A stretch of DNA of 49,669 nucleotides from positions 1 to 49,669 of the IMG/VR virus record IMGVR_UViG_3300037088_000785. One strand, given 5' to 3'. This document shows, in pieces, positions 12,700 through 27,538 of this stretch. Position numbers and translations under genes: made by a program. This stretch comes from a virus. Each line of letters begins with the position of its first letter. Position 1 is the first letter of the stretch. The notes beneath the pieces are model-generated. The model was not told where the DNA came from. It made no database searches and saw only the letters and a list, made by a program, of their open reading frames with translations.

Positions 12700-13989
12700 T
12701 TATGATGAGCTCGAAGAGCTGCTACTGGATGAACTGGAACGGCTTGAACTGGAGGAGCTGGACGAGCTCCCCCCTGACTGCTTCAAGCCAATGATCAGCT
12801 GGTTAAGACCCATCTCCTCCCTCAAAAGAGCCGTCCCGGACACAGACTCCGGGGGCATCCATTTACTCCAGGTCAGATTTTGCAGATGGCCGCCGTCGAG
12901 TCCCATGTGAACCCCGTCGCTCGCCAGCCACATATACCCCCAGATCTTTTCCTGTCCTTGCGAGAGGTCGATGATGGTCTGCGTCCCCTCGATCGCCCCC
13001 CAGATCGTTTTGACGATCCTCTTGCTCGGCTTATCGGGGTCCTCCATCTGCCAGAAGATCGTTTCCTTCTTTGTGGAAATCCATATCCCGTCCCGCACGG
13101 GAGCCAGAAGGGTAATCCGGCCATCGAAGGGGATGTAGTTGTGAGCCAGGTTCGTCAGCTCGTAGGAGTAGGGCTCCGTGTACCAGAGGACATCGTTCGA
13201 GGCGATGTAGATCCTGCCGTTGTAATACTTGATGATATGGCCGGGACCGGGAGGATTCAGGAATTGAGTGATCAGCGGTACGTTGAACGACTTCGTATCT
13301 CCTCCGTAAATAGCTTCAGTGGTGCCGTTGGGAACGCTCATTGCGCGGTAGAGCCTCTCGCCATTGGGCGTGGAAAGGTAGATGTTCACCCAAGCAACCA
13401 AAGGATCGGGGGATGGCTGGATTCCCGTGATGTAAACCCCTCCCCTGGTTGTGAGGGTGATCTGTACCGACCCCAGGGCACCGCTTTCCTGCCCGTCCGT
13501 TTTCATGTAGGTCATCGCGCACCGGTAAATACCTGGCGGCATGGAGCCAGATACTCGCGCAATCAAGGGTTGGGGAGGAGTGCCAACCCCCCAGCCCCAT
13601 GCCGTCAGGCCGTCGGTAATACCGGTGATCAGTTCATCCGAAAAATATATTTTGTCGAAAATCTTCTCGAAGGCCATTCTCTGATTAAGAGCCAGATCTC
13701 CCCGGAGCGTGGTAGCGGACATATCCGGATTCAGTCTCCGGAGATCTCTGTCTTCCCGGAAGAGGACCGGGCCCTTGTCGCTCCAGAGTGAATGAACATT
13801 CCCGGAGTAAATACTCTTGTATCCCTTCCGCCTTCGGGCATCCAGGTTCCGGTCGATGTCGATGTTCATGGCTTTCTGCAGCTCTCCCGGCTTGCAGCTC
13901 TCCGGCCGGTCCAGGATATTCAGGCCGGTGAAATCGTCGATGTTCTGCTCGCTGGTGCTCTTCGGCTTCAATTTTTTAACGTAGGCCAT
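12700..13989 (-). CDS. Tail protein with C-terminal poly-serine tail (429 aa)
   Basis: The start chosen is the ATG (MAYVKKLKPK) overlapping the stop of the upstream gene as TAATG with GGAGGGG before it; a longer version begins 13 codons earlier with no support. The body looks like a beta-rich tail protein (KAMNIDIDRNLDARRRKGY, GRIYIASNDVLWYTEP), similar in style to podovirus tail-nozzle or propeller proteins that read out repeated strand motifs; that is a structural guess. The last about 25 residues are SGG followed by Ser with a single Arg. This is one of three poly-serine proteins in the window. Confidence 0.75.
   Translation of the reverse strand: MAYVKKLKPKSTSEQNIDDFTGLNILDRPESCKPGELQKAMNIDIDRNLDARRRKGYKSIYSGNVHSLWSDKGPVLFREDRDLRRLNPDMSATTLRGDLALNQRMAFEKIFDKIYFSDELITGITDGLTAWGWGVGTPPQPLIARVSGSMPPGIYRCAMTYMKTDGQESGALGSVQITLTTRGGVYITGIQPSPDPLVAWVNIYLSTPNGERLYRAMSVPNGTTEAIYGGDTKSFNVPLITQFLNPPGPGHIIKYYNGRIYIASNDVLWYTEPYSYELTNLAHNYIPFDGRITLLAPVRDGIWISTKKETIFWQMEDPDKPSKRIVKTIWGAIEGTQTIIDLSQGQEKIWGYMWLASDGVHMGLDGGHLQNLTWSKWMPPESVSGTALLREEMGLNQLIIGLKQSGGSSSSSSSSSRSSSSSSSSSSSS
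12703..12772. repeat. Poly-serine coding tract 1 (C-terminus of the tail protein)
   Basis: About 25 serine codons at the end of the 429-residue protein, written with mixed codons, so it is not a simple nucleotide repeat. Confidence 0.8.
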
Positions 13990-14324
13990 TAAATCCCCTC
14001 CTCCCTCACCTGGACCAGGACATCCCATTCCCTTTCGTAGTTCGGCAGCCCGGTCTTCGCAAAAATAACCCTTCCTTTCAAAAAGTAATCCAGGCCGTCC
14101 GTTCCCCCCTTCACCGTGACCTTCAGGAATTGGGAATCGTTCGTGGGAGATCCCTCGATCATGGTGGAGGACCGATCAACGCCCTCCGAATCCACCATGG
14201 AGAAGCTATAAGAACTCAGGGCGTAGCCGGCATAGGTCGGGTTATTTACAAGCCAGTCGTACCGGAAGCGAAGGGTTTTTTGGTCTGCCGGAGCCTTGGT
14301 ATAGGGTACTTCATTCCAGGTCAT
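13989..14324 (-). CDS. Probable fiber-tail adaptor-like protein (111 aa)
   Basis: Small beta protein whose second half, VTVKGGTDGLDYFLKGRV followed by IFAKTGLPNYEREWDVLVQVR, fits a widespread family of about 100 residues in phage tail regions with the signature 'GGTDGxxYxxxxxVxTxxG...VxV'. Database entries of that kind are often called fiber-tail adaptor or hypothetical. The stop overlaps the start of the poly-Ser-tailed gene (TAATG), implying translational coupling. It probably connects surface proteins to the tail. Confidence 0.6.
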   Translation of the reverse strand: MTWNEVPYTKAPADQKTLRFRYDWLVNNPTYAGYALSSYSFSMVDSEGVDRSSTMIEGSPTNDSQFLKVTVKGGTDGLDYFLKGRVIFAKTGLPNYEREWDVLVQVREEGI

Positions 14325-14336
14325 GATCAGCCTCCG

Positions 14337-14726
14337 TCAATTTTTCCTGAGAGGGCCAATGGGCGCAATCGGCCTGAACTCTACTTTCCATGCCCCTGCT
14401 GTTGTCCCGTCTGAAAGCACAGAGCATGTTGAATCCGTGGATAAACAGTAATCGCTGGTCGTAGTGTCTGCCAGGACCGCTCTCACTTTTATGGTGAATC
14501 TCCCCGATCTCGGTCTGGGAATGACCAACTGCGTGTTCGAAGTCCCATAGGTATAGGTTTCTCCGGTATCCCGAACCAGGGTCACTTCATAGTGATCTAT
14601 CGTATAGGAAACGGCATCCCAAGCGACCTGTGTTGTTCCCGGGGTGGCAACATAATTCACCTGCCCAAATAGAAAGCCTGGTAGGCTCGCCAGGATGAAC
14701 ACCAATATTCCCAAGTATTTTCTCAT
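14337..14726 (-). CDS. Fibronectin type III-like protein with N-terminal signal sequence (129 aa)
   Basis: Residues 1-21 (MRKYLGILVFILASLPGFLFG) are a typical signal peptide with a positive N-terminus and hydrophobic core. Residues about 25-100 resemble one fibronectin type III domain (VAWDAVSYTIDHYEVTLV, then GRFTIKVRAVLA). Secreted FnIII proteins are found in phage tail regions, but a signal peptide on a virion protein is odd; it may be exported for host-surface modification or superinfection functions, or be inserted at the membrane. It sits between the 873-residue serine-rich protein and the adaptor-like protein. Confidence 0.6.
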   Translation of the reverse strand: MRKYLGILVFILASLPGFLFGQVNYVATPGTTQVAWDAVSYTIDHYEVTLVRDTGETYTYGTSNTQLVIPRPRSGRFTIKVRAVLADTTTSDYCLSTDSTCSVLSDGTTAGAWKVEFRPIAPIGPLRKN

Positions 14727-14734
14727 GCCTGCCC

Positions 14735-17356
14735 TCAGAAAGTCAAAGAACCCGTGGTTAAGAGCGATTCTACGCCGGTATCATCCACGCTGGTCACGGC
14801 AAAGTTGATTGTTCCGATCAGCGCGGGAGTGTGGGCCAGGGGGATCGTGCATTGAGTGACGATGCCGAGCTGGTCATACGGCGTATCATAGTCCGGAACG
14901 TCCGGGTCCGCAAGCGCCCGCACCCGGACGGCCACGATGTCAAGGTCGTCTTCGGGAAGATCCCATGAAAGGGTATACGTTAAAGTCGAAGCGGAAGAGC
15001 TTGAGCTGGAGCTCGAATACGAAGACGAAGAACTTGAGCTTGAAGATGAAAAGCTGGATGAGCTTGAACTCGATGAAGAGTTGGATTGCGAAGAAGAGCT
15101 CAAGGACATGGATGAGCTGGATAGTGAAGAGGAGCTCAAGGACAGGCTCGAAGAGCTGGAGCTAGAAACGGACGAGCTCGATGAACTCGACACGCTGGAA
15201 CTCGAAGACGAGGATACGGATGACGAACTGGAAGAGCTGAAAGAGCTGGACTGAGATGATGAGCTCGAAGAGCTGAACGATCCGGAGCTTGAACTGGAAC
15301 TGGAAAACGAATAATTCGCGTAGAGCTGGAAATACGGGAACGAAACATTGAAGGTCCCGAACCTTCTTTTCTTTATGGGGGGATCCGGTAATGGAAGCTC
15401 AAACTCATAGAATTTCTTCCACTCCTCCGCCCGTGCGGATGGAACGTGGTTCACCCCGGCGATAAAGTCTTCGACCTGATCGGGGATATGGGGGATGTGA
15501 AAATCAACCTGGGATGAGGACCAGGAAGATGAAGAAGAGCTGCTCGAACTCCATGAAGACGACGAAGAGGATGAGGACATCGAGGAGCTGCTACTCGAAC
15601 TCGAAGAAAAAGACTGAGACGAGGAGCTGGAGGACGAACTCGAAAAGGAGGAGCTACTGCTCGAAAAGCTCGAACTCGAAGACGAGAACGACGAGCTTGA
15701 GCTTGAAGATGAGCTGGACAGCGAGGAACTGGAACTCGATGAAGACCTTGAGGATGAAGACGATCTGGACGAACTCGAAAACGAAGATGAGCTGAAACTC
15801 GAAGACGAGGAAAGGCTGGATGAGCTAGAGCTCGATGAAGACGAACGGCTGGAAGAAGAACTGGAAGATGAACTTGATACCGATGAACTGGAGGACCGCG
15901 ATGAAGACGAAGAGCTGAAACTTGAACTGGAAAAAGAGGATGAAGACGAGCTTGAGAAGGAAGACGAACTCGACCGTGAACTGGAAGAAAAGCTCGAACT
16001 GGAAAAAGAGGATGACGAACTGGATAGGCTTGAGGATGATGAACTGGACGAAGCCCCGGCTTCATAGAGGGCCGCGATATCGGCATCCGATAGAATCCGG
16101 TTGTAAATGCGGACTTCATCGAGATCCCCGCGGGGAGCGCGGGCGATGGTGTAGTCATTACCTATCCTGAAGGTTGAGGTATTTCCAGATACCGATCCGG
16201 AGCCAATGGTGTCGCCGTCCAGGGCGGTGAGCAGAACGCCATCCGCATATAATTTGCAGACGCCGGTATCATAGGAATAGGCCAGGGCAAAATGGTGCCA
16301 GCCGGTGCTCAGATTCCCCAGGCTTTTGTAATGATCCCCATATACCGCGCTCCACCGGTCGAAATCCCCGACAAGATAAACCGGACCCCCATTATAGGTG
16401 CTCAAATACATCCGGTCGCCAGCCGTGCCCGCGCCGCTCTGACCCTTGGACATAAGCATTTGGATGGCGGTATCTCCCTGAGAGAGGAGATGGAACCAGC
16501 AGGCGAAAGTCATGTAGGTCAGGTTGTCGATCGCCGCATAGTGGGGAACGCCGAGGTTGTCGGTTGTCCCCAGATCCATCCTTACGGCGTTGCCAACCTT
16601 CCCCGTGACGGATTTATTCGTTGCTCCTTCATTCGAGGAGAAATTCGCGGTATTACCGTTTCCCAGACCGTCCGCCAGGGTAGCGCCATTGTTGGCCGGG
16701 CTGTCATCCAGGGGCCAGTAGCCGACGAGGCCCGTGGTGTAATCCGGGGGGCCGGTACTCGATGAGCTTGAAGATGAGAACGAGGAGGAAGAAGAACTCG
16801 ACTTCGATGAACTGGAGGATGAAGCGGAAGAAACGCTTGAACTGCTTGAGCTGGAAGAGCTCGGGGCCTCGGTGTTGACCTCTATGGCATCGATTACCCG
16901 ATGGTAGCAGGGGGAATATCCGTCGGGCTGGGGATAAACCAAAGTGTCGTCATCCGAGGTCCGTTTGATGGACGCCGTACCAGAGAAGGCGTAACTCCAT
17001 CCCACTTTCGCTGGATTGAGAAAAGCGAAGTGAAAAGAATATCCCTTTGTCATATCAAAAACAAAAGGAATCCAGTCTGACCACTTATCAACGCCGGCGG
17101 AAACGGAGAACCCCGGGTTGCCGCCGTCGAAGGTAATGCGCGTGGGTGTGGCCGCAAAGTCCGGGGCGGTCCCCGTTTCTCCTATCGATGCGCCGCTGAC
17201 CTCTACGGCAGTGAACGGTTCGGCCGGGAAGTGAACGCGAATTTGCAGTCCGCTGTATGCGAAGTCGGCGGGGTACAGACAGTTCCTAATATTATAGGGA
17301 TTGGCTTGCTCCGTCTGGGCGGGAAGAGTGGTTGACCATGTGGTTTGGATGGACAC
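14735..17356 (-). CDS. Serine-rich modular tail fiber-like protein with LamG and FnIII domains (873 aa)
   Basis: Order of parts: residues 1-165 beta-rich N-terminal domain; about 166-200 a first Ser tract; about 205-432 a LamG/concanavalin-A-like domain (LVGYWPLDDSPAN, GWHHFALAYSYDTG, GDLDEVRIYNRILSDADI); 436-615 a 180-residue Ser tract broken by single F, R, V, L, M, W or Q; 616-684 a middle segment containing SFPYFQLYAN; about 685-789 a third Ser tract with F, V, L, M, Y; 790-873 an FnIII-like domain. About 300 residues lie in Ser tracts. LamG and FnIII domains imply sugar or surface binding. The tracts resemble O-glycosylated serine-rich linkers; that glycosylation is inferred from the neighbouring glycosyltransferase genes. 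Confidence 0.85.
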   Translation of the reverse strand: MSIQTTWSTTLPAQTEQANPYNIRNCLYPADFAYSGLQIRVHFPAEPFTAVEVSGASIGETGTAPDFAATPTRITFDGGNPGFSVSAGVDKWSDWIPFVFDMTKGYSFHFAFLNPAKVGWSYAFSGTASIKRTSDDDTLVYPQPDGYSPCYHRVIDAIEVNTEAPSSSSSSSSSVSSASSSSSSKSSSSSSSFSSSSSSSTGPPDYTTGLVGYWPLDDSPANNGATLADGLGNGNTANFSSNEGATNKSVTGKVGNAVRMDLGTTDNLGVPHYAAIDNLTYMTFACWFHLLSQGDTAIQMLMSKGQSGAGTAGDRMYLSTYNGGPVYLVGDFDRWSAVYGDHYKSLGNLSTGWHHFALAYSYDTGVCKLYADGVLLTALDGDTIGSGSVSGNTSTFRIGNDYTIARAPRGDLDEVRIYNRILSDADIAALYEAGASSSSSSSSLSSSSSSFSSSSFSSSSRSSSSSFSSSSSSSFSSSSFSSSSSSRSSSSSVSSSSSSSSSSRSSSSSSSSSSLSSSSSFSSSSFSSSSRSSSSSRSSSSSSSSLSSSSSSSSSSFSSSSSSFSSSSSSFSSSSSSSSSQSFSSSSSSSSSMSSSSSSSSWSSSSSSSSSWSSSQVDFHIPHIPDQVEDFIAGVNHVPSARAEEWKKFYEFELPLPDPPIKKRRFGTFNVSFPYFQLYANYSFSSSSSSSGSFSSSSSSSQSSSFSSSSSSSVSSSSSSSVSSSSSSSVSSSSSSSLSLSSSSLSSSSMSLSSSSQSNSSSSSSSSSFSSSSSSSSSSYSSSSSSSSASTLTYTLSWDLPEDDLDIVAVRVRALADPDVPDYDTPYDQLGIVTQCTIPLAHTPALIGTINFAVTSVDDTGVESLLTTGSLTF
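14984..15318. repeat. Poly-serine coding tract 2 (between middle segment and FnIII)
   Basis: About 105 codons, mostly Ser with F, V, L, M, Q and Y spaced every five to nine residues, in the fiber-like protein. Confidence 0.8.
15512..16057. repeat. Poly-serine coding tract 3 (180 residues)
   Basis: The longest tract. Decoding 15541-15600 shows TCA, TCC, TCG, TCT, AGC and AGT side by side, with M and W as interrupting residues. Confidence 0.8.
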
Positions 17357-17369
17357 GAGATTTCCTTAA

Positions 17370-17531
17370 TTATTCTTTATTCTCTTCGCCGGATGATCCA
17401 TTTTCTTTCTTCACGGCGGTTGCCACTCGGACCCCCCACGGGTAACTGGACATCAATGGACTCCGGCGCATTTCTTTTTCCTCAACTAATTTTCTGACAA
17501 GCTCTTTTAGAAGATGATGCTGATCAATCAA
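17370..17531 (-). CDS. Small hypothetical protein with TTG start (53 aa)
   Basis: The frame ends just before the serine-rich fiber gene. I place the start at a TTG that overlaps the stop of the upstream zinc-like gene (TTGA) with GAGAAAGA before it, giving a product beginning IDQHHLLKELVRKLVEEKEM, a short amphipathic helix, followed by about 30 polar residues. A longer upstream frame exists but mostly shadows the upstream gene. Real but unidentified is my best reading; no function assigned. Confidence 0.35.
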   Translation of the reverse strand: MIDQHHLLKELVRKLVEEKEMRRSPLMSSYPWGVRVATAVKKENGSSGEENKE

Positions 17532-17917
17532 GTCTTTCTCGTATTCTGATCGCTGGTGTGCGGAGACCCAGCATCCGGAGTCGTCTGAATATCCAGGAGA
17601 AACAGAATCTCCATTTCCAGAGGACGGTATTCCTCTTTTGCCAGATTCCTGAGCTTCGTTAAAAGATCCTGATACTCGGAGAAGTCTAGGGTTATCAGCC
17701 CTTCTTGGGGTGGAATCGCTCCCTTCCTTGGTTTTCGGGGCTTTGTTTTCCGGGGCTCCTGGCTCCGGGAGCCTCGCACCCTGGTCATCAGGGCGCTGGA
17801 GCACTCCTGGCAGAGTCCTCGGCTTGCCCCATCTGTCCGGATAAGGGCGGGCTTGTCGGGGTGGTTTTTGCATCTCCACCCTCCTTCCGGGGGATTGTTT
17901 TTCCTTGAGGCTCTCAT
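17528..17917 (-). CDS. Small zinc-finger-like protein (129 aa)
   Basis: Residues C16-x2-H19 and C36-x2-C39 (CKNHPDKPALIR then GLCQECSSAL) form a plausible zinc site typical of small phage proteins. Residues 45-70 are Arg/Lys-rich, and the C-terminus has a helical segment (LTLDFSEYQDLLTKLRNLAK). A GAGGAAGGG ribosome site precedes the ATG. It sits between the glycosyltransferase/methyltransferase cassette and the serine-rich fiber gene. A nucleic-acid or protein adaptor role is possible; nothing more can be said. Confidence 0.6.
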   Translation of the reverse strand: MRASRKNNPPEGGWRCKNHPDKPALIRTDGASRGLCQECSSALMTRVRGSRSQEPRKTKPRKPRKGAIPPQEGLITLDFSEYQDLLTKLRNLAKEEYRPLEMEILFLLDIQTTPDAGSPHTSDQNTRKT

Positions 17918-17934
17918 TCCCTTCCTCTCTTCCT

Positions 17935-18738
17935 CTAAGAATCGAGGTTTTTAAGCCAGTCCCTTACGCCGCCATCCTGATAATTCTTGAGGTCGAAGGT
18001 CTGAATCTTCTCGTGAGTGAATCTCTCCACAGGAATCTCTCTCTGTAGGAAAGCAATCCGCTCATGCGGCATCGTTGCCATCGCACAATGGAAGTTTCCG
18101 GAGACCACCCCGATGAAGGCCCCGCAGGCCCCCAGGAGTCCCAGAAGGGTCGATACCCGCGGCGTGACCCGGCGAACCGAGCAGTCCACGAAATCGAATT
18201 TCTGGTTTACGGGATTATGGAAGATGTGCTCAAAATGTGACTCTATAGGAATCCATCCAGCCGCGAGGATCTCGGACCATATCTTTTTGGCAACGTCCTC
18301 CGGGCAATTTGCCAGATCAGGCAAGCACGTTATGTTCCAATGGACCGCGCACAGCTTACTCGGGAACTTCGGAAGAGGCTTGTACTCGATAGCCGGTGGA
18401 GAAATGCCCAATTCCTCCTTGCAGCACAGCTCCGCCTTGGTGAGGCCGGGGACCTCCACCGGGAAGTGGATCAGAGCCGTCAGGTCGTATCCCTCCTCGA
18501 TGTTTTTGAGGTCCCCGAGAAGAATGGCTTCAGGGTAAATCGTCTCTTCATCCAGCCCTTTGCAAAACCCCAGGTCAAAATGGATGCCGGGGTATAATTC
18601 CTTCAGCTTATCGAAAAGGGGCAGGAACATCACTTGATCCCCCAGGCCGTGCCAACTAACGATGAGGACCTTTTTGAAGGTCCCCTCGTCCAGATAGGCA
18701 GCCAGCTTCTTTTCTTGCTTCCCCGGTTCTATGATCAT
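17935..18738 (-). CDS. GT9-like (ADP-heptose transferase family) glycosyltransferase 1
   Basis: The N-terminal half-domain KKVLIVSWHGLGDQVMFLP (residues 22-40) is the acceptor-side signature of GT9 enzymes, with the usual GDxV turn. The C-terminal part VSTLLGLLGACGAFIGVVSG then NFHCAMA (about 197-228) matches the donor-site region 'S..ELaaLl..a...vg.dsG..Hla'. GT9 enzymes move heptose or related sugars onto lipopolysaccharide or other acceptors with a GT-B fold; no membrane segment is present. At 267 residues it is short for the family. It starts MIIEPGKQEKK, a stretch duplicated at the start of the preceding zinc gene. It is the last gene of the modification cassette. Confidence 0.8.
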   Translation of the reverse strand: MIIEPGKQEKKLAAYLDEGTFKKVLIVSWHGLGDQVMFLPLFDKLKELYPGIHFDLGFCKGLDEETIYPEAILLGDLKNIEEGYDLTALIHFPVEVPGLTKAELCCKEELGISPPAIEYKPLPKFPSKLCAVHWNITCLPDLANCPEDVAKKIWSEILAAGWIPIESHFEHIFHNPVNQKFDFVDCSVRRVTPRVSTLLGLLGACGAFIGVVSGNFHCAMATMPHERIAFLQREIPVERFTHEKIQTFDLKNYQDGGVRDWLKNLDS

Positions 18739-18895
18739 TTTTCGAAACCCCTTCTATAAATTTATGGCACAAACAATATTCTCTTGGCTGTGAGTATGAA
18801 TTATGCCACCAACACATTCCCTTGCTATTATTGTGCATTTCTTTTCCGTGCCCACACTCTGCACATTTTTCTTGCTTCCCGGGTTCTATTATCAT
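18656..18895 (-). CDS. Small Cys/His-rich zinc-binding protein (79 aa)
   Basis: Starts at an ATG overlapping the upstream methyltransferase stop as ATGA. The core CAECGHGKEMHNNSKGMC, followed by WWH and YCLCHKF, carries Cys/His in a pattern seen in small phage and bacterial zinc proteins ('CxxCGHxxxxH...C......CxCxxF'). The last about 28 residues read across the start of the GT9-like gene in another frame and may be spurious extension. Its first ten residues (MIIEPGKQEK) equal the start of the GT9-like protein because of a local duplication. Role unknown; it lies inside the modification cassette. Confidence 0.55.
   Translation of the reverse strand: MIIEPGKQEKCAECGHGKEMHNNSKGMCWWHNSYSQPREYCLCHKFIEGVSKNDHRTGEARKEAGCLSGRGDLQKGPHR
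18710..18895 (-). repeat. 29-base direct repeat at two gene starts
   Basis: 18710-18738 and 18867-18895 are identical at 27 of 29 bases; each is the first codons of a gene (MIIEPGKQEK). It lies between the methyltransferase and the GT9-like gene. Confidence 0.75.
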
Positions 18896-19545
18896 CTTCG
18901 CACCGCCCATGCTGTTCCTTTGCCAGCCTCATCCCGATACCAGGAGAACTCATTTAGGTGCTTATCTTGGAAAGCATTGAGAGCTGGTTTCAGGTCAAAT
19001 CCATCTGATTGCACGGTAGCCGAAATATCGTCCACGAGGAGTACTCCTCCTGTGGCCAGAAGATCGACCACGTTTTCCAGGTCTTCCGTGAGAACCTCAA
19101 CCGAGTGGCCCCCATCGCACAAGATGTAATCGAACAGGTCGGTATTCCCCTGCTTGAAGGCGGGGACGGTCTTCCTGGAATCACCAATGTAGAACTCAAC
19201 GAACCCCGTGGGGATGGCCAGGTGCTCAAGGTGCTTCCTCACCAGATCCGGGCATGAGAGGCCATCATCGAACAGATCGAACAGGCAGACTCGGAGGCCG
19301 CTGAAGTCCTGGTAAGCGGAAAGAAGGGCCGCGATGGAGAGTCCCGTTCGGGTTCCTATTTCCATGATCCTCATCGGATGATGAGTAGCTCCCCATTGGA
19401 AGGCTAGTGCGTGAATATCGAAGAAATTATCGCCCCATTTTTTGTAGTGAGTCTGATAATTAAGGACGTAGGTGTCACGGGGAGTGACTTTATTTAATAC
19501 CCGCAGGTTGTGAAAGACCATGGCCGTGAGCAGTTTTTTATCCAT
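18892..19545 (-). CDS. SAM-dependent class I methyltransferase (217 aa)
   Basis: The SAM-binding motif I is MEIGTRTGLS (61-70), and ILCDGGHSVE (141-150) and GGVLLVDDI (166-174) fit the methyltransferase_24 type, in which the acidic-His motif contacts SAM. Small enzymes of this family often methylate sugars or sugar-linked products. Its start overlaps the end of the upstream glycosyltransferase by about eight bases, and its stop overlaps the next gene, so the genes are coupled. Target inferred as a glycan of the phage or host surface; not shown. Confidence 0.75.
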   Translation of the reverse strand: MDKKLLTAMVFHNLRVLNKVTPRDTYVLNYQTHYKKWGDNFFDIHALAFQWGATHHPMRIMEIGTRTGLSIAALLSAYQDFSGLRVCLFDLFDDGLSCPDLVRKHLEHLAIPTGFVEFYIGDSRKTVPAFKQGNTDLFDYILCDGGHSVEVLTEDLENVVDLLATGGVLLVDDISATVQSDGFDLKPALNAFQDKHLNEFSWYRDEAGKGTAWAVRR

Positions 19546-20452
19546 CGATCTTCACCTTGTACTCGGCCATCTTCTTCACATAGTCCACGAGGAAGGCCAG
19601 GCAGTTCCGAGCCAGGGCCTTGCAGGTTTCCGAGCCGTTCAGCTCCCGGTCGATCATCTTGAGCTGTCCGTCAAGCTGCCATCCCTGCCACACGGAACTT
19701 AAAAATTGTCCGTGAAGAACGAACAGCTCCTCCCCGTTCACCGTCCACAGGTTCCCGTGCATCTCGCAGACGTGGGAGCAGGGCTTGAGCAGGGTCTCAT
19801 GGAGGCCGGACCAGGTGGCTTCGGCCAGGGCGATGACCCTGTTCTGGTATCCGAATTTCATAATGGATAGATTTACCGAATCCATGTCGGGGCCGCGGAA
19901 TCGCCGCTCAGGAGGATAGTCCGCAAAGATCTTCCAGGAGAAGACAAAGGCATCCGAAAACTTCGGAGAGTAAAAAAGAGGAGAGCAGCAGATGTCCTTT
20001 TCGTTCCAGGTCTTCGGTAGAATATGCTTTCCATCTACTTTGTGGTGCTCCTCAAATCCCTCTCCGTATGTCCTCTTTTGCTCCAATCCACAGCCGATTA
20101 TCACATCCGCCTTATCCGCAATTTCAAACCAGATATCCAAATTGCGAATGATGCAGGAATCGGCGTCCAGGACACAGATCGCATCGTACTCCACGTCCAG
20201 GAGGGCGTAGCGGTAGCGCATGAGCACTTCGCCCTCACCGAGCGCCTGCATCTCTGGGATACCCGAAACCTCGTGGACGATGACCCGGTATCCGAGTTGA
20301 TCGAGCTTGGCCAGGTACTTCGCCGGCAGGGCCCAAGAGATCAGGTGAACGTCCTGCTTGTTCCCCACCTTCTCCAGGCTGTTCAGAAGGACGTTCAGCG
20401 GGGGCAGGTACTTCTCGTTCGCCGCCACGACGAAGGCGTATTTACTCTTCAT
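19538..20452 (-). CDS. GT-A fold glycosyltransferase (GT8-like), DAD motif
   Basis: Start placed at MKSKYAFVVAAN because the longer frame upstream shadows the preceding gene; this ATG overlaps that gene's stop by 11 bases with GGCGAGAG before it. KYAFVVAANEKYLPPLNVLL is the nucleotide-binding beginning of a GT-A enzyme. AICVLDADSCIIRNLDIW (91-108) contains the DxD metal-binding motif (D96-A97-D98), placing it near GT8. Typical GT8 enzymes use UDP-sugars to extend glycans. Length 304 residues is normal. Likely acts in the cytoplasm of the infected host. Confidence 0.8.
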   Translation of the reverse strand: MKSKYAFVVAANEKYLPPLNVLLNSLEKVGNKQDVHLISWALPAKYLAKLDQLGYRVIVHEVSGIPEMQALGEGEVLMRYRYALLDVEYDAICVLDADSCIIRNLDIWFEIADKADVIIGCGLEQKRTYGEGFEEHHKVDGKHILPKTWNEKDICCSPLFYSPKFSDAFVFSWKIFADYPPERRFRGPDMDSVNLSIMKFGYQNRVIALAEATWSGLHETLLKPCSHVCEMHGNLWTVNGEELFVLHGQFLSSVWQGWQLDGQLKMIDRELNGSETCKALARNCLAFLVDYVKKMAEYKVKIDG

Positions 20453-20963
20453 ACTCTCGCCACCAGCACCAGTCGTCTCCTTGTTTGACATCACCAATCT
20501 CCTCCTCCACGGCTTTCTTTGTATCGTCGAGCTGCCAGTCATGGCCGCCCATAATCGCCCGCTTCTTGAGTTTTCCTTTCCAGAAGCGCATATCTCTCTT
20601 TTGCTGTTCGTATCTATGGTCCCCATCCACCCAAACGAAGTCCAGGGGTTCCCGGACCGCTTCCAGGGCATCATCCGAAGTCATCCGGAGGACGATGCAC
20701 CTTCCTTCGTCTATGAAGCTCTGAAGCCGCTTGACGGCCTCCAGGTAGTTCGCATCATGGTACGGCTGGGGCTCTTCCGCTTCATACAGATGCCCGGTAA
20801 AGTGCTTCCATGGGTCGATGCAGTACAGCTTCAGTTTCGGCATCCGGGCCAGCATGGAGTAGCTTCCGGAGGCCCCTTGGATTCCGATCTCGGCCCCCAC
20901 AACGGGAACATCCCCAAAGAAGGGGATCAAGATTCGCTCAGGGAGGAAGATGTTCTGGTTCAT
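20442..20963 (-). CDS. Class I methyltransferase (173 aa)
   Basis: VVGAEIGIQGASGSYSML (21-38) is SAM motif I. DFVWVDGDHRYEQQ (108-121) and AIMGGHDWQLDD match the second and third conserved regions of methyltransferase_24 proteins. The start overlaps the upstream glycosyltransferase stop as ATGA. No metal-binding or kinase motif. Members of the family methylate sugar rings and small molecules; together with the other two methyltransferases here it suggests methylated sugars or caps. Target not determined. Confidence 0.75.
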   Translation of the reverse strand: MNQNIFLPERILIPFFGDVPVVGAEIGIQGASGSYSMLARMPKLKLYCIDPWKHFTGHLYEAEEPQPYHDANYLEAVKRLQSFIDEGRCIVLRMTSDDALEAVREPLDFVWVDGDHRYEQQKRDMRFWKGKLKKRAIMGGHDWQLDDTKKAVEEEIGDVKQGDDWCWWREYEE

Positions 20964-21925
20964 TCCGGGGGTCCTTGCACGAGGTAGTCCACGTCCTCGA
21001 TATTTGCTCTCAACTTCACTTTCCAGGTTTCGTTGAAAAGCCGATACATCCCGAAGGCCACACGGGTATTCTCCGCCAGCATACTCTTGAGGGGGTCTTT
21101 CGCGTCGGGGTGCTCCGTAACCCCTTTTATGAACCCCTTCGAATACCAGCAGCCATGCAGCATTTTAAGGCGCAGGTTCTCAGGGAGGTTGAGAAGGTAG
21201 GTCTTGCCATTACTCATCTTGATATCTCTCACTGGAGAGGTCAGGAAGGCGTGTTCCAGCCATTCTATGTCGTTCAGGAGAACCACCCGGTCCTTTTTCT
21301 TTAGGTAGTGGACCGCGTACCCCAGGGCTCTCATTTCATGGAATTCCGGGGTTTCGAAGATGATCTTCTTGAGGATGTAGTCCACCACGTCGGCCCACTT
21401 CAGGGGTTCCCAAAGCCAGGGGGAAGGCCAGATCGGGAAGACCGTGGGGGATACCGCCGGGTCAAAGTTCTCCAGGAAGGTTCCATGGAAGGAGTGCCAC
21501 GCGGTGACCAGGAGGCCGGTCCCCTCCACCATCTTGAACCAAGGGGTCAGGTCCTCGAGTAAAAGGCAATCCGCCTGGATAACCCCCGTTACTTTGTACC
21601 GGTCCTTCAGCATGAAGGGGTAATAGACGAACCCGAAGACCACGGGCCAGTCTTGGGCTTGCCAGTATTTCCAGTCCTTGAACTCTTGCGGGACCGTCTG
21701 GATCATCTCTTCGATATCAACCAGCTCCAGGCGGTAATTGAGATCGGCCTCCTGAATCTTCTGGATCCACCAGGCGGGCATTCCCCGATGAACCAGGTGA
21801 AGATCTATTTTGCTCCCGTGGTAATCGAGGGCGTTGATGACTGCGTTGGTCCCGGGCAGGTATCTCGTCCCGCAGCAGAAGAGGGTGAAGGCAAAGTCTG
21901 ATTTGGGCTTACCGTTTGTCCACAT
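20960..21925 (-). CDS. GT-A-like glycosyltransferase (321 aa)
   Basis: FAFTLFCCGTRYLPGTNAVI (11-30) fits the first beta-alpha unit of GT-A enzymes, and GVIQADCLLLEDLTPWF (114-130) occupies the place of the DxD motif in GT8-like proteins, but here it reads QAD, so the first acidic residue is replaced. The rest is compatible with a GT8-type sugar transferase (VVLLNDIEWLEH, HGCWYSKGF). The QAD could mean metal-independent or impaired catalysis. Coupled to its neighbours by short overlaps. Confidence 0.65.
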   Translation of the reverse strand: MWTNGKPKSDFAFTLFCCGTRYLPGTNAVINALDYHGSKIDLHLVHRGMPAWWIQKIQEADLNYRLELVDIEEMIQTVPQEFKDWKYWQAQDWPVVFGFVYYPFMLKDRYKVTGVIQADCLLLEDLTPWFKMVEGTGLLVTAWHSFHGTFLENFDPAVSPTVFPIWPSPWLWEPLKWADVVDYILKKIIFETPEFHEMRALGYAVHYLKKKDRVVLLNDIEWLEHAFLTSPVRDIKMSNGKTYLLNLPENLRLKMLHGCWYSKGFIKGVTEHPDAKDPLKSMLAENTRVAFGMYRLFNETWKVKLRANIEDVDYLVQGPPE

Positions 21926-21928
21926 GGT

Positions 21929-22840
21929 TCACCGCATCCTCGTAAGGTTCAGCCGGCCGCCCTGGTAGTACATTTTCACGGCATCCACGATCGTGTTGGG
22001 TTGGATCAGAGTGAAGCAGTGTGGAGTGCCGTAGACCAGATCATCACAGGACCCCTTCACGCCGCCTTTCCAACATCCATCCCACATGCAGCACTTCAGG
22101 GCGCCGTTCGTGTAGATGTACCTCCCATGGGGATAGATATGCCACCGGACCCCTTCCTTCCCGGCCGCCAGGACAACGTGGGGCTGTTCAAAGGCCGCGC
22201 TGATTACGAATTGGAGGGAAAGAGGGCCGATGCTTCCATGGGACCACCAGGCGAGCCGGATGAGTTGGCGGAGGTCGGTCTTCCCCACCAGATTGTAAAC
22301 TCCGTCGAGGACGTGGTGCAGGTGGCCAAGGTGGCCGATCTGAACGAGGCGGATGGCCCCCCCGAAGTAATCGTTGAACCGATCCACCACTTCCTGCCAA
22401 CGGTGATACTGCTTCAGCTCATTATCCTGTTTTCTTCCAGCGTTGATGAGCCAGAATCCCCCGGTCCAGCCGAATTCTACTTCCACCTGGTTTATCCAGT
22501 GGGCCTCTTCATCGGAGACGTAAAGCTCGGGCCGGATTCCGGTCTTCTTGATCTTGACGCCCAGCTTCTTTTCGATGTCATGTCTGAAGGCATCCGTAAA
22601 GTGGTGCCCCCTCCACCCGCTCTCGTGGATCTCATCGTAGGAGATATCAAACTTCTCAACGTCGGGGTCTTTGTCGTCCAGGGGGGTGAGACGGGGGTTA
22701 TGCTCCCAGATTTCGGGGCAGGGGCTTCGCACGTCGATCTGATAGTCCGGGTAAGACTCTTTCAGGTCTCCCACGGCCCGGGTCATGGTCAGGATGTCTC
22801 CGGGAGATTGACGTTGAGAGAGGATTATCTTTCGGCTCAT
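21929..22840 (-). CDS. GT9-like glycosyltransferase 2 (303 aa)
   Basis: LSQRQSPGDILTMTRAVGDL (7-26) is the GT9 acceptor-domain start with the SPGD loop, and SPCPEIWEHNP fits the downstream loop. The C-terminal half has RQLIRLAWWSHGSIGPLSLQ followed by FEQPHVVLAAGKEG, which matches the donor-site region. It is the second GT9-like enzyme in the cassette, and sequences differ, so it is not a recent duplicate. Inferred to transfer a heptose-like or related sugar. Confidence 0.75.
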   Translation of the reverse strand: MSRKIILSQRQSPGDILTMTRAVGDLKESYPDYQIDVRSPCPEIWEHNPRLTPLDDKDPDVEKFDISYDEIHESGWRGHHFTDAFRHDIEKKLGVKIKKTGIRPELYVSDEEAHWINQVEVEFGWTGGFWLINAGRKQDNELKQYHRWQEVVDRFNDYFGGAIRLVQIGHLGHLHHVLDGVYNLVGKTDLRQLIRLAWWSHGSIGPLSLQFVISAAFEQPHVVLAAGKEGVRWHIYPHGRYIYTNGALKCCMWDGCWKGGVKGSCDDLVYGTPHCFTLIQPNTIVDAVKMYYQGGRLNLTRMR

Positions 22841-23344
22841 TTAACCCCCGAAGAGGAAAGAGTGGATGTCTTTCCTGGGAGGACATTCTGGAGTACCACT
22901 TCTCATAGCGGCAAAACCATAGTTTGCAAAGAGAGAGCGAATTGATTTTTGGGTGAAGTAATGCAGATGCTCCCCGGGCTTAAAATGTTTAGACTCCATA
23001 AGCTCGCCCTCTATAATAGGAACGGATACGGCTACGTTTCTGGCAAGAGCGAGGATAGGTTCGATCATTCTAAAGTCCGGTAGATGTTCCAAAACATCCC
23101 AAAAGCAAACCACGTCATACATCATCAGTTTTATTCCCGTCTGCGGGAAGTTCCCGATATCGTAGGTGTATACCTCCACCCCAGAAGGACGGTAGGCTCT
23201 GAACCACCCCACCCCCGATCCATAGTCCAGAACGGTTTTGGGGTGTACGAAATCAACCCAATTCCATCGAAGCCGACAAATCTCTTCCGCTGTTGCGCTG
23301 TTCTGCCGGAGCATCTTCTCAAAGTACTCCAGGTCGTACTCCAT
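22841..23344 (-). CDS. SAM-dependent methyltransferase, short (167 aa)
   Basis: KTVLDYGSGVGWFRAYRP (36-53) is SAM motif I, and YDVVCFWDVLEHLPDF (76-91) is the 'DvLEHl' motif of methyltransferase_23 proteins, with LHYFTQKSIRSLFANYGF as the usual end region. It is shorter than the full family (about 220 residues) and lacks the N-terminal helices. The stop abuts the ATG of the GT9-like gene. First gene of the modification cassette. Target inferred as a glycan or capping group. Confidence 0.7.
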   Translation of the reverse strand: MEYDLEYFEKMLRQNSATAEEICRLRWNWVDFVHPKTVLDYGSGVGWFRAYRPSGVEVYTYDIGNFPQTGIKLMMYDVVCFWDVLEHLPDFRMIEPILALARNVAVSVPIIEGELMESKHFKPGEHLHYFTQKSIRSLFANYGFAAMRSGTPECPPRKDIHSFLFGG

Positions 23345-23364
23345 TTCCTCCTCCTCTACTTGTT

Positions 23365-24273
23365 TTATAGTGACCCGAAATCGGGCCGGGCGACAACTTC
23401 AGACCATCTCAGGTTGTCTTTGGCTGCTCGTGCTTTGAGCTTGTTATGCTCGAATATTTCCCCATGCTCCATGGAGGCCTTGGGGTCCAGGGTGTCCGCA
23501 TCTTTCTTCAGGTAGGCCTCCCGCATGATCCCGTCCACCAATTTGATGTGATCCTCCGTGCGCATCTCCGGGCTCTGGGTATCCATGCCGGTAGCCGTTA
23601 AGGCTGCTCCCAGGCGGGTCACGGTCAGATAAAGGGTGTCGATCACCTTTCGGATGACTCCGGCCGAGGCGGTCTCGTCGGTGATGTCTTCCAGGACCGT
23701 GAAGGAATCGGCGGTCGCAGTGACCACCGTGAAGGTCGCGGGGATGATATCGGTCCCGTTTGAAGTCGTCCCGGAGATCACAACCTCATCGCCGGCAGAA
23801 AGGGTGCCGGAGAACTTCGCGCCCGTCTGTGAGATGCTGTTGTCGGAAGCGGTGAAGACGAAGGCTTTGGAAAAGTACCCCAGGGAAGGATCGGGAAATC
23901 TCACCACCCGGATTTTCCCGGAATCATAATCCGGGACCATGTATTCGACCGTCCCCGTGGCATACTTCCAATCCAAAATGAATTGGCTCAGCCAGATATC
24001 GCTCTTCACCTTCACGTCTTTCTTGGCCGTGAAAAGTCGCCCATAGCGGACTTCCGTTATTTGGGGGTGAAGGGCGTAGGTGGGCTGATTGCAGAGGATG
24101 GGAATTTGGATGATTGCAGGAGTGGAATCGTCAAGGATGCAACCGGACTCCTTGACCCACTCGTTATATGCCTGATTCAGATAAAGCAAAAGCTCCCAGG
24201 ATTCCCAGAGGAAGGGAGCTTTCGTGTCTTGAAGCCTTTCCCTTGAGAGGGAAAGGATATCGCTCGTAATCAT
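23365..24273 (-). CDS. Head-tail adaptor-like protein with extra beta domain (302 aa)
   Basis: The N-terminus MITSDILSLSRERLQDTK, then WELLLYLNQAYNEWVKESG, matches podovirus adaptor proteins (DUF6682-type, 'xxL..yLNeA..e'), which join the portal ring to the tail. Residues about 140-215 (FSGTLSAGDEVVISGTTSNG) are Thr/Ser/Gly-rich and look like an extra beta domain inserted between the adaptor halves. It starts after a hairpin that covers the ribosome site (24278-24295). It lies immediately before the modification cassette. Confidence 0.65.
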   Translation of the reverse strand: MITSDILSLSRERLQDTKAPFLWESWELLLYLNQAYNEWVKESGCILDDSTPAIIQIPILCNQPTYALHPQITEVRYGRLFTAKKDVKVKSDIWLSQFILDWKYATGTVEYMVPDYDSGKIRVVRFPDPSLGYFSKAFVFTASDNSISQTGAKFSGTLSAGDEVVISGTTSNGTDIIPATFTVVTATADSFTVLEDITDETASAGVIRKVIDTLYLTVTRLGAALTATGMDTQSPEMRTEDHIKLVDGIMREAYLKKDADTLDPKASMEHGEIFEHNKLKARAAKDNLRWSEVVARPDFGSL

Positions 24274-24277
24274 GGCG

Positions 24278-24295
24278 TCCCCCTAAACAGGGGGA
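24278..24295 (-). promoter_or_regulatory. Stem covering the ribosome site of the adaptor gene
   Basis: TCCCCC and GGGGGA pair around a six-base loop four bases before the adaptor ATG, and the AGGGGGA needed for ribosome binding is one arm. Could reduce adaptor translation. Confidence 0.4.
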
Positions 24296-24342
24296 GCCCG
24301 GATAGGCCCCCCCCTTTTTTTATCGTGTTAGAGCTTCCCTGC

Positions 24343-24762
24343 TTATGTCCCGCTGCTCGAAGAGCTGCTGCTCCGAGAAGAAGAGCTGCTGCTGATAGAG
24401 CTTGAGCTGGAGCTGAACGAGCTGGAACTCGACACGCTGGAGGACGAAGAACTGCTGCTCATGGAACTGGAAGAGCTGCTCCGGGAACTGGAACTCGAGG
24501 AGCTGCTCTCAAGGATCTGCCCAAACTGACAGGAGGTTGAATTACCGATATTGAAGGAGAACTGCCCGGTATCCGTACAGATATACAGGCATCCGGTGGC
24601 GTACCCGGCCTTATTGACCGGCATGTTCGCATAGGTCCCCATAGCCAAAAGGACATGGTGCTTTTGCGTTTGGATAAGGCGCCATACATTGCCACTCTCC
24701 ATGTCCTTCGAACCTTCGAGGGTCAAAACTCCTACTGACCAGTCTTGTCTCCGTGATGGCAT
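24343..24762 (-). CDS. Head-proximal protein with C-terminal poly-serine tail (139 aa)
   Basis: Residues 1-85 form a small soluble domain, probably beta (NVWRLIQTQKHHVLLAMGTY, CLYICTDTGQFSFNIGNSTS), with no known motif. From about residue 86 to the end is a run of about 50 Ser broken by R, M, V, F and I. It is encoded between the adaptor and the decoration-like gene, so it is plausibly a head or neck surface protein. With the two tail proteins it gives three poly-serine virion candidates. Confidence 0.7.
   Translation of the reverse strand: MPSRRQDWSVGVLTLEGSKDMESGNVWRLIQTQKHHVLLAMGTYANMPVNKAGYATGCLYICTDTGQFSFNIGNSTSCQFGQILESSSSSSSSRSSSSSSMSSSSSSSSVSSSSSFSSSSSSISSSSSSRSSSSSSSGT
24349..24508. 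repeat. Poly-serine coding tract 4 (head-proximal protein)
   Basis: About 50 codons, mostly Ser with R, M, V, F, I at single positions. Confidence 0.8.
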
Positions 24763-25379: not shown

Positions 25380-27538
25380 TTAACTCAGGGTCGGCTGGGC
25401 GTAGACCATGCCGATCGCTGAGGGTTTGATCACTTTGCGGCCGAACACATGCAGACTCTTAATGAACCGACCGAAGGTGGTCTCGGGGTTGTCGATGTAA
25501 TTCGTCTCCGTGAACTGAGAGGCGAAGGTCAACCCGTATTTGTGGCCAAAGAGGCAGTAGAAGCACAGCTTCCCGGTTGTGGTGTCCACCCCGGCCGTCC
25601 CCGGTCCCTTCGGGAGAAGGTTGGAGGCGTAGAGGGTGAAGTTGAGCAGCCGGCCCAGGCGTCCGCTTCGGAGGGTGCTGGTCGCGTCCCCCATCATCGA
25701 AGCGTCTTTGATGTCGGAGGTCTTGAGCAGCATGGCCATGACTCTCGGCATGACGAAGAACCACTCATCATCGTCCGGGACGTTCTGCTCGCCCAGGACC
25801 GCTTCGCACATGGCCAGCAATTTGATGATGTTCGAAGTGGTGACTTCGTAGGGCGCACCCACGGTCCCCAGGTCGTACAGACCGGAGATGACTCCCGCGT
25901 TGGACCCGTAGTTGTTGGAATCGGGGAGAGCGGTGGAGTAGGGCGATTGGCCGCAGAAGTAGGCGAGAACATCGGTGTCGATCTTAACCTTCTCGTTCTT
26001 CGTGGCGTTGTCCGCCCATTGGGACATCAGATTGATGTCGCTCTGGTACTTGTCGATGGAATCGATCCCGAAATAGAAGTGCGTGCATTGGTCGATGTAC
26101 AGGGTCATCGCCGGGGATTCGATTCTGTCGGGGGGCTTTAACACCCCGCCTTTCTGGTATTCGTTGAGGTACACCGGCACGTCGCCCTCTGTGCGGATCT
26201 CCACTTGGGACCCCATACCCTTGATATCCGAAAATTCACTGTTATCGGCAGGCTCTTTATCCTGCCTTCTGTGTCTTTCAACACAGTCCAGACTATATCT
26301 TCTTTTTGCTTGACACCAAAATCGACTTCTGGTACCATACCTTTCATGCGTAGAACGGTGCCGATAGAAAAGGTGAGAAAACTTTCTGATTCCGGTTTGT
26401 GTGCTAAAGAAATCGCTGACAAACTCGGATTTAATCCGCACACTATTCACCGTATCGGCAGAGAACACGGCTTTGTCGTTGCTCGCTCCACGGTCGTTTC
26501 TTTCACAAAAGAATCGTTGGATAACGAGTACAGACGGTATAAGACCGTCCATGAAATCGCCCGCCGACATAATGTGAGTAACGCCACCATTCTTCGACAC
26601 ATGAAGATCCTTGGTATCAAATCCAACAGGAAGTTGGTTTCCTTCACCGAGGAGGAGTTGCAAAGGGAATACAGCCAAACTCGCTCTTCGTTGAAGATCT
26701 CTCGTAAATTTGGAGTGAGTAAAATCACCGTGCTTCGATGGATGAGAAAGTTCGGCATCGGGCGAAAGGTCAGGGTTGCCCCCGTAGAACAGGTTAGAGA
26801 ACTTTCGCTGAAAGGTCTTTCTGCATCCGAAATCGCAGCCGAGATCGGATTTACGGCCAATTATATTTGTGAGCTTGGCAGAAGAGAGAACATTCTCATC
26901 CCGGACAAGTTCCATCCGGGATACGCCTTTAAACACAAATATATCATGGTCCGAAAGCCCGATCATCCTTTTGCGGATTGCAAAGGATACGTTATGGCGC
27001 ATCGGCTTGTCATGGAAACGAAGCTCGGTAGGTATCTCACGCCCGACGAGGTTGTCCATCATATCAACGGAATCACTACGGATAACCGTCCTGAGAACTT
27101 GCAGGTGATGGACAGGTCCTCTCACTCCAAAATCCCCAAATTCCGGAGTCATTAAAGCAAAAAGTCCCGCGCTCGTGGAGATTTCTTCCGGTCTGGAATA
27201 CTTTCTCTGGTCGTTGAACCTTCCACTCATTCCTGAGAGGCTTGGCTGCTGATAACCCATTGTTTCATCCGCCAACTTTTCAAGCTCTTGACGTACACCG
27301 TCACCGGTCCCGCTTTGGCATGGCGGCTTTAGGGTGTTCCAGCAATTCACGGGATTTAACGAGGGCGAAATCATTATTTTAAATCACCCTCGTAATTCGT
27401 GTTGGAGATATGGGTGAGGACGGTCGCGGCGTACCATCTTTTGACGAGCTGGGTGGACCACTTGGCGGGAACAAATTTGCTTAAACTGGTCGGCCCATAA
27501 TCCGGATAGCCTACTGATCTGACAAACGATGTCGGCAT
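25380..27538 (-). CDS. Major capsid protein, interrupted by a group I intron (spliced 333 aa)
   Basis: The product is made of exon 1 (27538-27386, 51 codons, MPTSFVRSVGYPDYGPTSLS through THISNTNYEG) and exon 2 (26228-25380, 283 codons including stop, beginning DIKGMGSQVEIRTEGD). Exon 1 ends exactly on a codon and exon 2 begins on one, so the reading frame is kept only if the intron is removed; the open frame of exon 2 continues into the intron but lacks the normal N-terminus. ISNTNYEGDIKGMGSQVEIR across the join is the classic N-terminal arm of T7/P22-like coat proteins. Encoded after the scaffold and before the decoration-like gene. Confidence 0.85.
26310..26338 (+). promoter_or_regulatory. 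Sigma-70-type promoter for the antisense HNH gene
   Basis: TTGACA (26310-26315), 17 bases, TACCAT (26333-26338). The predicted transcription start (six to seven bases further) coincides with the ATG at 26346, which has no clear ribosome site, so the message may be leaderless. The -35 lies inside the 3' part of the intron. Confidence 0.55.
26346..27155 (+). CDS. Intron-borne HNH homing endonuclease, antisense to the capsid gene (269 aa)
   Basis: Residues about 205-262 form the HNH nuclease: GYVMAHRLVMETKLGRYL, then EVVHHINGITTDNRPENLQV with H238-H239-N241 and N247/N251. Before it lie four helix-turn-helix-like repeats, about 6-43, 55-92, 102-138 and 147-183 (KVRKLSDSGLCAKEIADKLG; VHEIARRHNVSNATILRHMK; LKISRKFGVSKITVLRWMRK; VRELSLKGLSASEIAAEIGF). 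HNH enzymes cut intron-less alleles to spread the intron. It runs opposite to the capsid gene from a promoter of its own at 26310-26338, and has no good ribosome site. The longer frame upstream is not supported. Confidence 0.85.
   Translation: MRRTVPIEKVRKLSDSGLCAKEIADKLGFNPHTIHRIGREHGFVVARSTVVSFTKESLDNEYRRYKTVHEIARRHNVSNATILRHMKILGIKSNRKLVSFTEEELQREYSQTRSSLKISRKFGVSKITVLRWMRKFGIGRKVRVAPVEQVRELSLKGLSASEIAAEIGFTANYICELGRRENILIPDKFHPGYAFKHKYIMVRKPDHPFADCKGYVMAHRLVMETKLGRYLTPDEVVHHINGITTDNRPENLQVMDRSSHSKIPKFRSH

Follow-up and report, generated by a model that had tools for sequence, protein, structure and literature searches.

Phage-encoded glycosylation of virion proteins is known from the mycobacteriophages Che8, Corndog and Myrna, whose glycosyltransferases (GTs) glycosylate capsid or tail-tube proteins (Freeman et al. 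2023, cited in PMC11256854 and PMC12363180); the portions of these two papers covered here mention no polyserine (poly-Ser) acceptor module. In bacteria, the BAHT enzymes include TibC, a dodecamer with a heptose donor that heptosylates Ser, not Thr, of an autotransporter (PMC4358343), and AAH, and the serine-rich repeat glycoproteins of Gram-positive bacteria pair a Ser-rich acceptor with dedicated transferases (PMC6973325). Long Ser tracts are also found in the extracellular carbohydrases of Saccharophagus and Cellvibrio, and in those of Saccharophagus degradans polyserine linkers are established as domain spacers (PMC2386152); statements on the last three papers refer to excerpts of them throughout. 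One survey of low-complexity regions, with phages among its subjects, reports poly-Ser in polysaccharide enzymes, with no mention for phage proteins in the part covered (PMC6821194). The present analysis concerns a cassette of four GT-like and three methyltransferase genes in an uncultured phage, IMG/VR virus record IMGVR_UViG_3300037088_000785, which was analyzed over its whole 49,669 nt (49.7 kb; positions 1 to 49,669; hereafter the window). The cassette lies among genes for poly-Ser proteins, and together they probably constitute a virion-glycosylation module, in which the phage would build a methylated O-glycan coat of its own on poly-Ser tails that act as acceptor tags.

The cassette resembles the mycobacteriophage systems in that the GTs are phage-encoded and the targets would be virion proteins, here candidate acceptors encoded close to the GTs, and differs from them in its occurrence in uncultured phages and in its GT9/TibC-like core accompanied by methyltransferases. 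With TibC and AAH, the transferase named GT9b shares a predicted GT9-type GT-B fold (Z 20.9 to TibC) and proposed Ser acceptors on surface proteins, and its conserved Cys cluster in the C lobe may correspond to theirs; the acceptors of TibC and AAH, however, are beta-helix autotransporters rather than virion poly-Ser, and GT9b is devoid of the N-terminal barrel. Besides accessory Sec export genes, the loci of serine-rich repeat glycoproteins have GtfA/GtfB-type transferases, and no such transferase is among the Pfam matches of the seven cassette proteins; the tracts here, unlike those glycoproteins, are near-pure Ser on phage proteins. Whereas the tracts of Saccharophagus and Cellvibrio carbohydrases stand between enzyme domains, those described here are often C-terminal on virion proteins and accompanied by GT cassettes. 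An earlier note on this DNA, made from its letters, was aware of no phage system of this kind. No description of poly-Ser with a GT cassette was found in the titles and abstract openings of the papers listed from the open-licence PMC literature. Virion glycosylation by phages as such was already known from mycobacteriophages; its pairing with poly-Ser acceptors and GT9 enzymes looks like a new form of it.

The link between GT9b and poly-Ser is a real genomic association. Profile searches were adopted because single-protein searches for related loci gave no relatives for TerL and, for the head-closure protein Hc3 and the transferase GTA2, only a 30-kb contig carrying a twin of the cassette region, in which the three compared proteins are 100% identical. 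The GT9b profile search gave 60 viral loci, the twin included. Under a strict rule, by which a poly-Ser open reading frame (ORF) within 10 kb of GT9b must exceed any overlapping frame in length, poly-Ser was present in 33 of the 60 and, after loci with GT9b at least 90% identical had been joined, in 23 of 44, the twin being counted in each (34 of 60 under the first rule). By contrast, poly-Ser was absent by the strict rule from all 80 terminase-relative control loci (Fisher p 3e-13 versus the deduplicated GT9b set), the best 80 of 491 obtained with this phage's terminase profile, and by the first rule from all 46 that span at least 10 kb. In the opposite direction, two DNA scans with a Ser-codon pattern yielded at least 239 viral loci, 79 with strong mixed-codon tracts (4 of 120 from the first scan and 75 of the 119 new loci of the second) and 160 controls; the first scan returned mostly TCN-only tracts in short ORFs, which were taken for the antisense of acidic repeats, and most of its loci served as controls (3 of 120 had poly-Ser by the strict rule). 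At least one of GT9a, GTA1 and GT9b had a relative in 5 of the 79 poly-Ser loci versus none of the 160 controls. When whole records were considered, GT9b was present in 21 of 78 poly-Ser records, with apparent near-duplicates kept (G114, G118 and G126; G094 and G123), versus none of 50 control records hand-picked, mostly as longer contigs, from the 160 control loci (first scan), and in one of 47 terminase-relative records (E 7e-10, 33 bits), these being the 46 loci of at least 10 kb plus L387. All four GTA1 loci, one of them the twin, are on contigs that also carry GT9b and poly-Ser. The earlier note had named beforehand a lack of co-occurrence in related phages as one outcome that would refute its reading; the association was found in both directions against controls. 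A tblastn search of 50,697 phage records gave no match to GT9b, a distant GT9b, GT9a or GTA2; GTA1 and poly-Ser were not searched for there.

The tracts themselves bear marks of selection on the protein. As had been claimed, three proteins of the structural block carry them, and their residues could be located in each (Table 1); one of these late proteins is a relative of the head-closure protein Hc3 (phrog_8040, E 4.8e-55). The Ser-codon pattern has 15 matches in the window versus none in 100 shuffles. Each of five tracts uses all six Ser codons, with AGC/AGT and TCN intermixed, and these two groups are not interconvertible by single synonymous mutations. An origin of the tracts as trinucleotide microsatellites was rejected because of this six-codon mixture in every tract, together with the biased interrupting residues. 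Among the latter, P, T, A and G account for 3 of 53, versus 44% expected under an equal-rate one-step mutation model (p 7e-10), and F, R, L and V are the most frequent, a bias that speaks for protein-level selection. The 873-aa frame is real coding sequence, since a LamG domain (Pfam E 1.2e-14) is matched in the same frame as its tracts, and this protein is proposed to be the main acceptor.

Similar features recur in related poly-Ser proteins, 102 of which were selected (those above 1100 aa being left out) and 91 used, after three from L247 and eight cut or similar rows had been set aside. These proteins, from GT9b-positive and other loci, have a mean Ser run of 9.3, with R, L and F as the commonest interrupting residues. 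Their matches include cement (7), DUF2460 (5), LamG (4), head decoration (4) and tail tube (2) proteins, as well as capsid and baseplate families; other matches are to PHROGs for glycoside hydrolase (5), RNA ligase (2), a head maturation protease and DNA methyltransferase (2). Some poly-Ser ORFs are extreme, with about 1000 residues or more (L151 3-3563, L129, L148 and L245). In L252-L256, poly-Ser interrupted by Cys and Phe occurs upstream of GT9b in ORFs of up to 3083 aa, and a 548-kb contig of huge-phage size (L033) encodes several poly-Ser proteins and a GT9b gene.

The predicted model of GT9b (pLDDT 92.6) shows the GT-B heptosyltransferase fold of GT9, with fold matches to a Veillonella GT9 protein (3tov, Z 24.6), WaaF (1psw, 21.6), TibC (20.9) and WaaC (19.4-19.8). 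All 33 alignment rows have D15 and K143, and the K143 stretch aligns with K192 of WaaC in a weak match (E 0.4); if their presumed equivalence to TibC residues is right, they would be the catalytic Asp and the donor-phosphate Lys, roles borrowed from that enzyme (PMC4358343). Cys 250, 256, 265 and 275, conserved in 32, 33, 30 and 33 of the 33 rows, form a cluster that recalls the iron finger of TibC (Cys339, 342, 358 and 370) with a different spacing. Residue 1 of the model aligns at residue 95 of TibC, and the N-terminal beta-barrel of the latter (1-97) is absent. Membership of GT9b in the TibC (BAHT) group is not claimed. As modelled, the enzyme type fits serine O-glycosylation and is equally close to lipopolysaccharide (LPS) heptosyltransferases, and GT9b is proposed to be the initiating protein O-glycosyltransferase.

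The run proceeds in the order MT3, GT9b, GTA2, MT2, GTA1, MT1 and GT9a. Its reading in the earlier note as four GTs and three methyltransferases holds for the methyltransferases, by Pfam, and for GT9b, by fold, while the assignments of GT9a, GTA1 and GTA2 are weak. None of the four GTs has a meaningful Pfam or PHROG match. GT9a has a weak NCBIfam heptosyltransferase match (E 0.034) and a relative of 47% identity in L215, the GT8 likeness of GTA1 and GTA2 is weak (profile E 0.024 to a GT8 chain), and the predicted model of GTA1 is poor (pLDDT 51) and not usable for fold search. For MT2 there is a second match (E 3.9e-15), to a PHROG whose annotation is DNA methyltransferase. Coupling by short overlaps, also proposed before, applies from MT3 to MT1, where successive spacings are 0, +3, -4, -11 and -8 nt, with the ATG at 20452 as the most likely start of GTA1, and does not extend to GT9a, which is 153 nt away. 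Seroconversion cassettes of the Gtr type comprise a membrane flippase and a membrane-bound GT, and the usual cut-off for 19-residue hydropathy is 1.6; the cassette proteins peak at 0.89-1.96, and GT9a, at 1.96, is above it. No sugar-nucleotide gene was recognized in the window cassette.

Related cassettes have additional tailoring functions. The set analyzed comprises 144 cassette ORFs from 19 of the 24 representatives with GT9b and poly-Ser, L247 and four loci of reversed orientation being left out, as were ORFs above 700 aa and single-domain GT9b ORFs. Among the 25 of 57 families listed, 17 matches are to Methyltransf_24 and other methyltransferases, 5 to GT9, 4 to DegT aminotransferases, 3 each to RmlD, epimerase and LicD, 2 each to UDP-GlcNAc 2-epimerases and sulfotransferases, and 1 to PEP mutase. 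In contrast, 144 control ORFs from terminase loci, which stand for structural and replication DNA and not for the surroundings of other GTs, gave none of these families, and of methylases only those acting on DNA, among the 25 of 42 families listed.

In the mechanism proposed, poly-Ser stretches, often C-terminal, would have been added to virion proteins as unstructured acceptor tags, here to the head-closure protein, the LamG protein and a small capsid-proximal protein. Late in infection, GT9b, with its TibC-like fold, would start the glycan by attaching a sugar to serines while the proteins are in the cytoplasm of the host; extension would fall to GT9a, GTA1 and GTA2, and the three methyltransferases would cap or decorate it, and the assembled virions would carry a dense methylated O-glycan brush. 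Having no recognized sugar-nucleotide gene, the window cassette would therefore use host donors, while related cassettes may bring their own sugar-nucleotide enzymes. The brush may serve as a shield against proteases or adsorption traps, or in adhesion. That the tracts accept O-glycans had been suggested in the earlier note, and it now draws on the co-occurrence, the GT9 fold near TibC and the virion families of the poly-Ser proteins; the glycan chemistry is inferred, including the serines glycosylated, the order of steps and the sugar, as is the benefit.

Several observations weigh against this reading. By the strict rule, 27 of the 60 GT9b loci have no poly-Ser, with some contigs cut and often fragments; 57 of the 78 poly-Ser records have no GT9b; and a weak match to MT1 occurs in the control locus L134. 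The terminase controls are not host-matched, and 34 of the 80 loci are shorter than 10 kb. Near GT9b-negative tracts, 129 ORFs (from 144 sampled out of 198) gave chiefly structural families, and the 25 of 43 families listed include a single FkbM methyltransferase but no GT; Pfam would miss divergent GTs such as the window's own. The correspondence of the GT9b Cys positions to those of TibC is putative. When the viral poly-Ser label is mapped on a tree of 73 GT9b proteins (bootstrap not fully settled), 13 changes are required, 10 or more of them by the well-supported branches; the label is also clustered, as none of 500 shuffles gave so low a number. Each change may be a gain or, following a single early acquisition, a loss, and since the tree cannot separate the two, the pairings of GT9b with poly-Ser may be many and independent or may descend from one old pairing.

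Such clustering would be expected if shared hosts or shared descent had brought the genes together with no functional link, the cassette glycosylating other virion or host proteins. Cellular relatives of GT9b occur in metagenome-assembled genomes (MAGs) of Verrucomicrobia, Planctomycetes, Acidobacteria and Gemmatimonadetes (among the best 80 of 105), and the nearest tract is just moderately closer to GT9b than under uniform placement (no more than 2 kb in 16 of the 23 deduplicated loci, 9.2 expected), both of which accord with this explanation. It nevertheless seems unlikely, given that poly-Ser is missing from the terminase-relative loci, subject to the reservation on hosts, that the nearest tract is on the GT strand in 18 of the 23, and that tract and cassette genes overlap in two loci: the start of the GT9 gene lies within the overlap with a poly-Ser ORF in L151, and in L233 the end of the poly-Ser ORF overlaps the start of MT3, which is followed by GT9b. 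Poly-Ser near cellular GT9b relatives (16 of 77 deduplicated) was not used as evidence, because in the two loci inspected, L310 and L330, the tracts oppose D/E/L-rich ORFs. The relatives in L308-L386 (32-42% identity) come from contigs of MAGs as well as isolates, among them Verrucomicrobia, Gemmatimonadota and Acidobacteria. A contig in a Deltaproteobacteria/Myxococcota MAG (L307) has a 76% identical GT9b that directly follows genes for a poly-Ser protein of 775 aa and an MT3-like protein; the contig, which is perhaps of phage origin and binned with the MAG, hints at a host group.

Alternatively, the tracts could be unmodified flexible brushes or linkers, with the cassette altering host surface polysaccharide for superinfection exclusion. 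The domain spacers of S. degradans, the LPS-acting WaaF and WaaC, which match the GT9b fold about as well as TibC does, and the many poly-Ser records devoid of GT9b are all in its favor. The tract, however, ends no more than 20 residues from the C terminus in 53 of 85 complete poly-Ser ORFs rather than standing between domains, none of the seven cassette proteins has a Gtr-type Pfam match, and a co-occurrence of GT9b and poly-Ser far above controls is left unexplained. This explanation is quite unlikely, and modification of host polysaccharide is considered less likely than glycosylation of virion tracts. It is very improbable that acidic repeat genes, read on the wrong strand, account for the poly-Ser frames: D/E/L repeats read antisense can give mixed-codon poly-Ser (chromosomal L310 and L330) and an acidic shadow ORF lies opposite a window tract, but LamG and Hc3 are matched in the same frames as the tracts of the window, and 33 of 60 viral loci were retained under the strict longer-ORF rule.

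Glycosylation of virion tracts may be part of something larger. It is tentatively suggested that the cassette exemplifies a widespread mobile glycan-coat module, in which tags could be grafted onto any surface protein and combined with a TibC-like initiator and an exchangeable tailoring set of extra GTs, methyltransferases, amino-sugar and epimerase enzymes, LicD, sulfotransferase and PEP mutase; the hydrophobic or basic residues every few Ser would be part of the recognition rhythm of the enzyme. If true, many uncultured phages would bear a self-made glycan coat anchored to a simple acceptor tag, and the coat would vary much as bacterial capsules and O-antigens do. This would change the view of how phages adsorb, persist in the environment and are recognized by immune systems, and of the virion surface itself, and provide a function for a set of unannotated phage genes. 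A Ser tail with a soluble transferase would moreover be a compact glycosylation tag, testable with two expressed proteins.

By profile matches, the window encodes terminase, portal, capsid, structural and head-closure proteins. The nearest named matches of the head-closure protein are in Manatee Spring podovirus MW202615.1 (35% identity) and Methanosarcina virus MetMV (25%). In MW202615.1 (38 kb covered), the relative of the protein encoded at 23365-24273 adjoins Hc3, and both the Ser tail of Hc3 and the cassette genes are missing; in the window the two are 9.4 kb apart, which accords with the earlier claim that the cassette is inserted in the structural block. The Hc3 relative of MetMV has no Ser tail either, and neither MetMV (40 kb covered) nor Acidovorax phage AP1 (25 kb covered) has cassette homologues or Ser tracts. 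Under a looser rule, a single Ser-rich frame appears in MW202615.1, antisense to the genes. Two 19.9-kb stretches by the structural region of terminase relatives, poorer comparators with no Hc3 match, have no cassette or tracts, a 15-residue Ser run in L405 being the only match.

Table 1. Genes of the cassette, poly-Ser proteins and bordering gene in the window
Feature	Coordinates	Strand	Description
Head-closure Hc3 protein	12700..13989	-	429 aa, 48 Ser; C-terminal tract 408-429 (22 residues)
Poly-Ser protein B	14735..17356	-	873 aa, 314 Ser, LamG; tracts 166-200, 436-615, 683-790
GT9a	17935..18738	-	Putative second GT9-like transferase
MT1	18892..19545	-	Class I methyltransferase, PF13578 E 4.4e-15
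GTA1	19538..20452	-	Putative GT8-like transferase, LDAD motif
MT2	20442..20963	-	Class I methyltransferase, PF13578 E 5.7e-13
GTA2	20960..21925	-	Putative GT-A-like transferase; 24% identity to GTA1; DxD not clearly retained
GT9b	21929..22840	-	303 aa, GT9-fold glycosyltransferase (predicted) with conserved four-Cys cluster
MT3	22841..23344	-	Class I methyltransferase, PF13489 E 1.3e-13
Structural protein	23365..24273	-	phrog_399 E 1.5e-9; insertion border; "adaptor" label from the earlier note
Poly-Ser protein A	24343..24762	-	139 aa, 53 Ser; C-terminal tract residues 86-137; proposed acceptor

Two further features of the window lie outside the cassette. A 2074-aa late protein (277-6501), in which a weak ParB-like stretch is the sole recognized part, is perhaps an internal virion protein. 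The major capsid gene is split by a group I intron (RF00028, 61.8 bits; 26269-27403, minus strand), and an HNH endonuclease gene (26205-27155, plus strand) lies on the opposite strand almost entirely within this intron.

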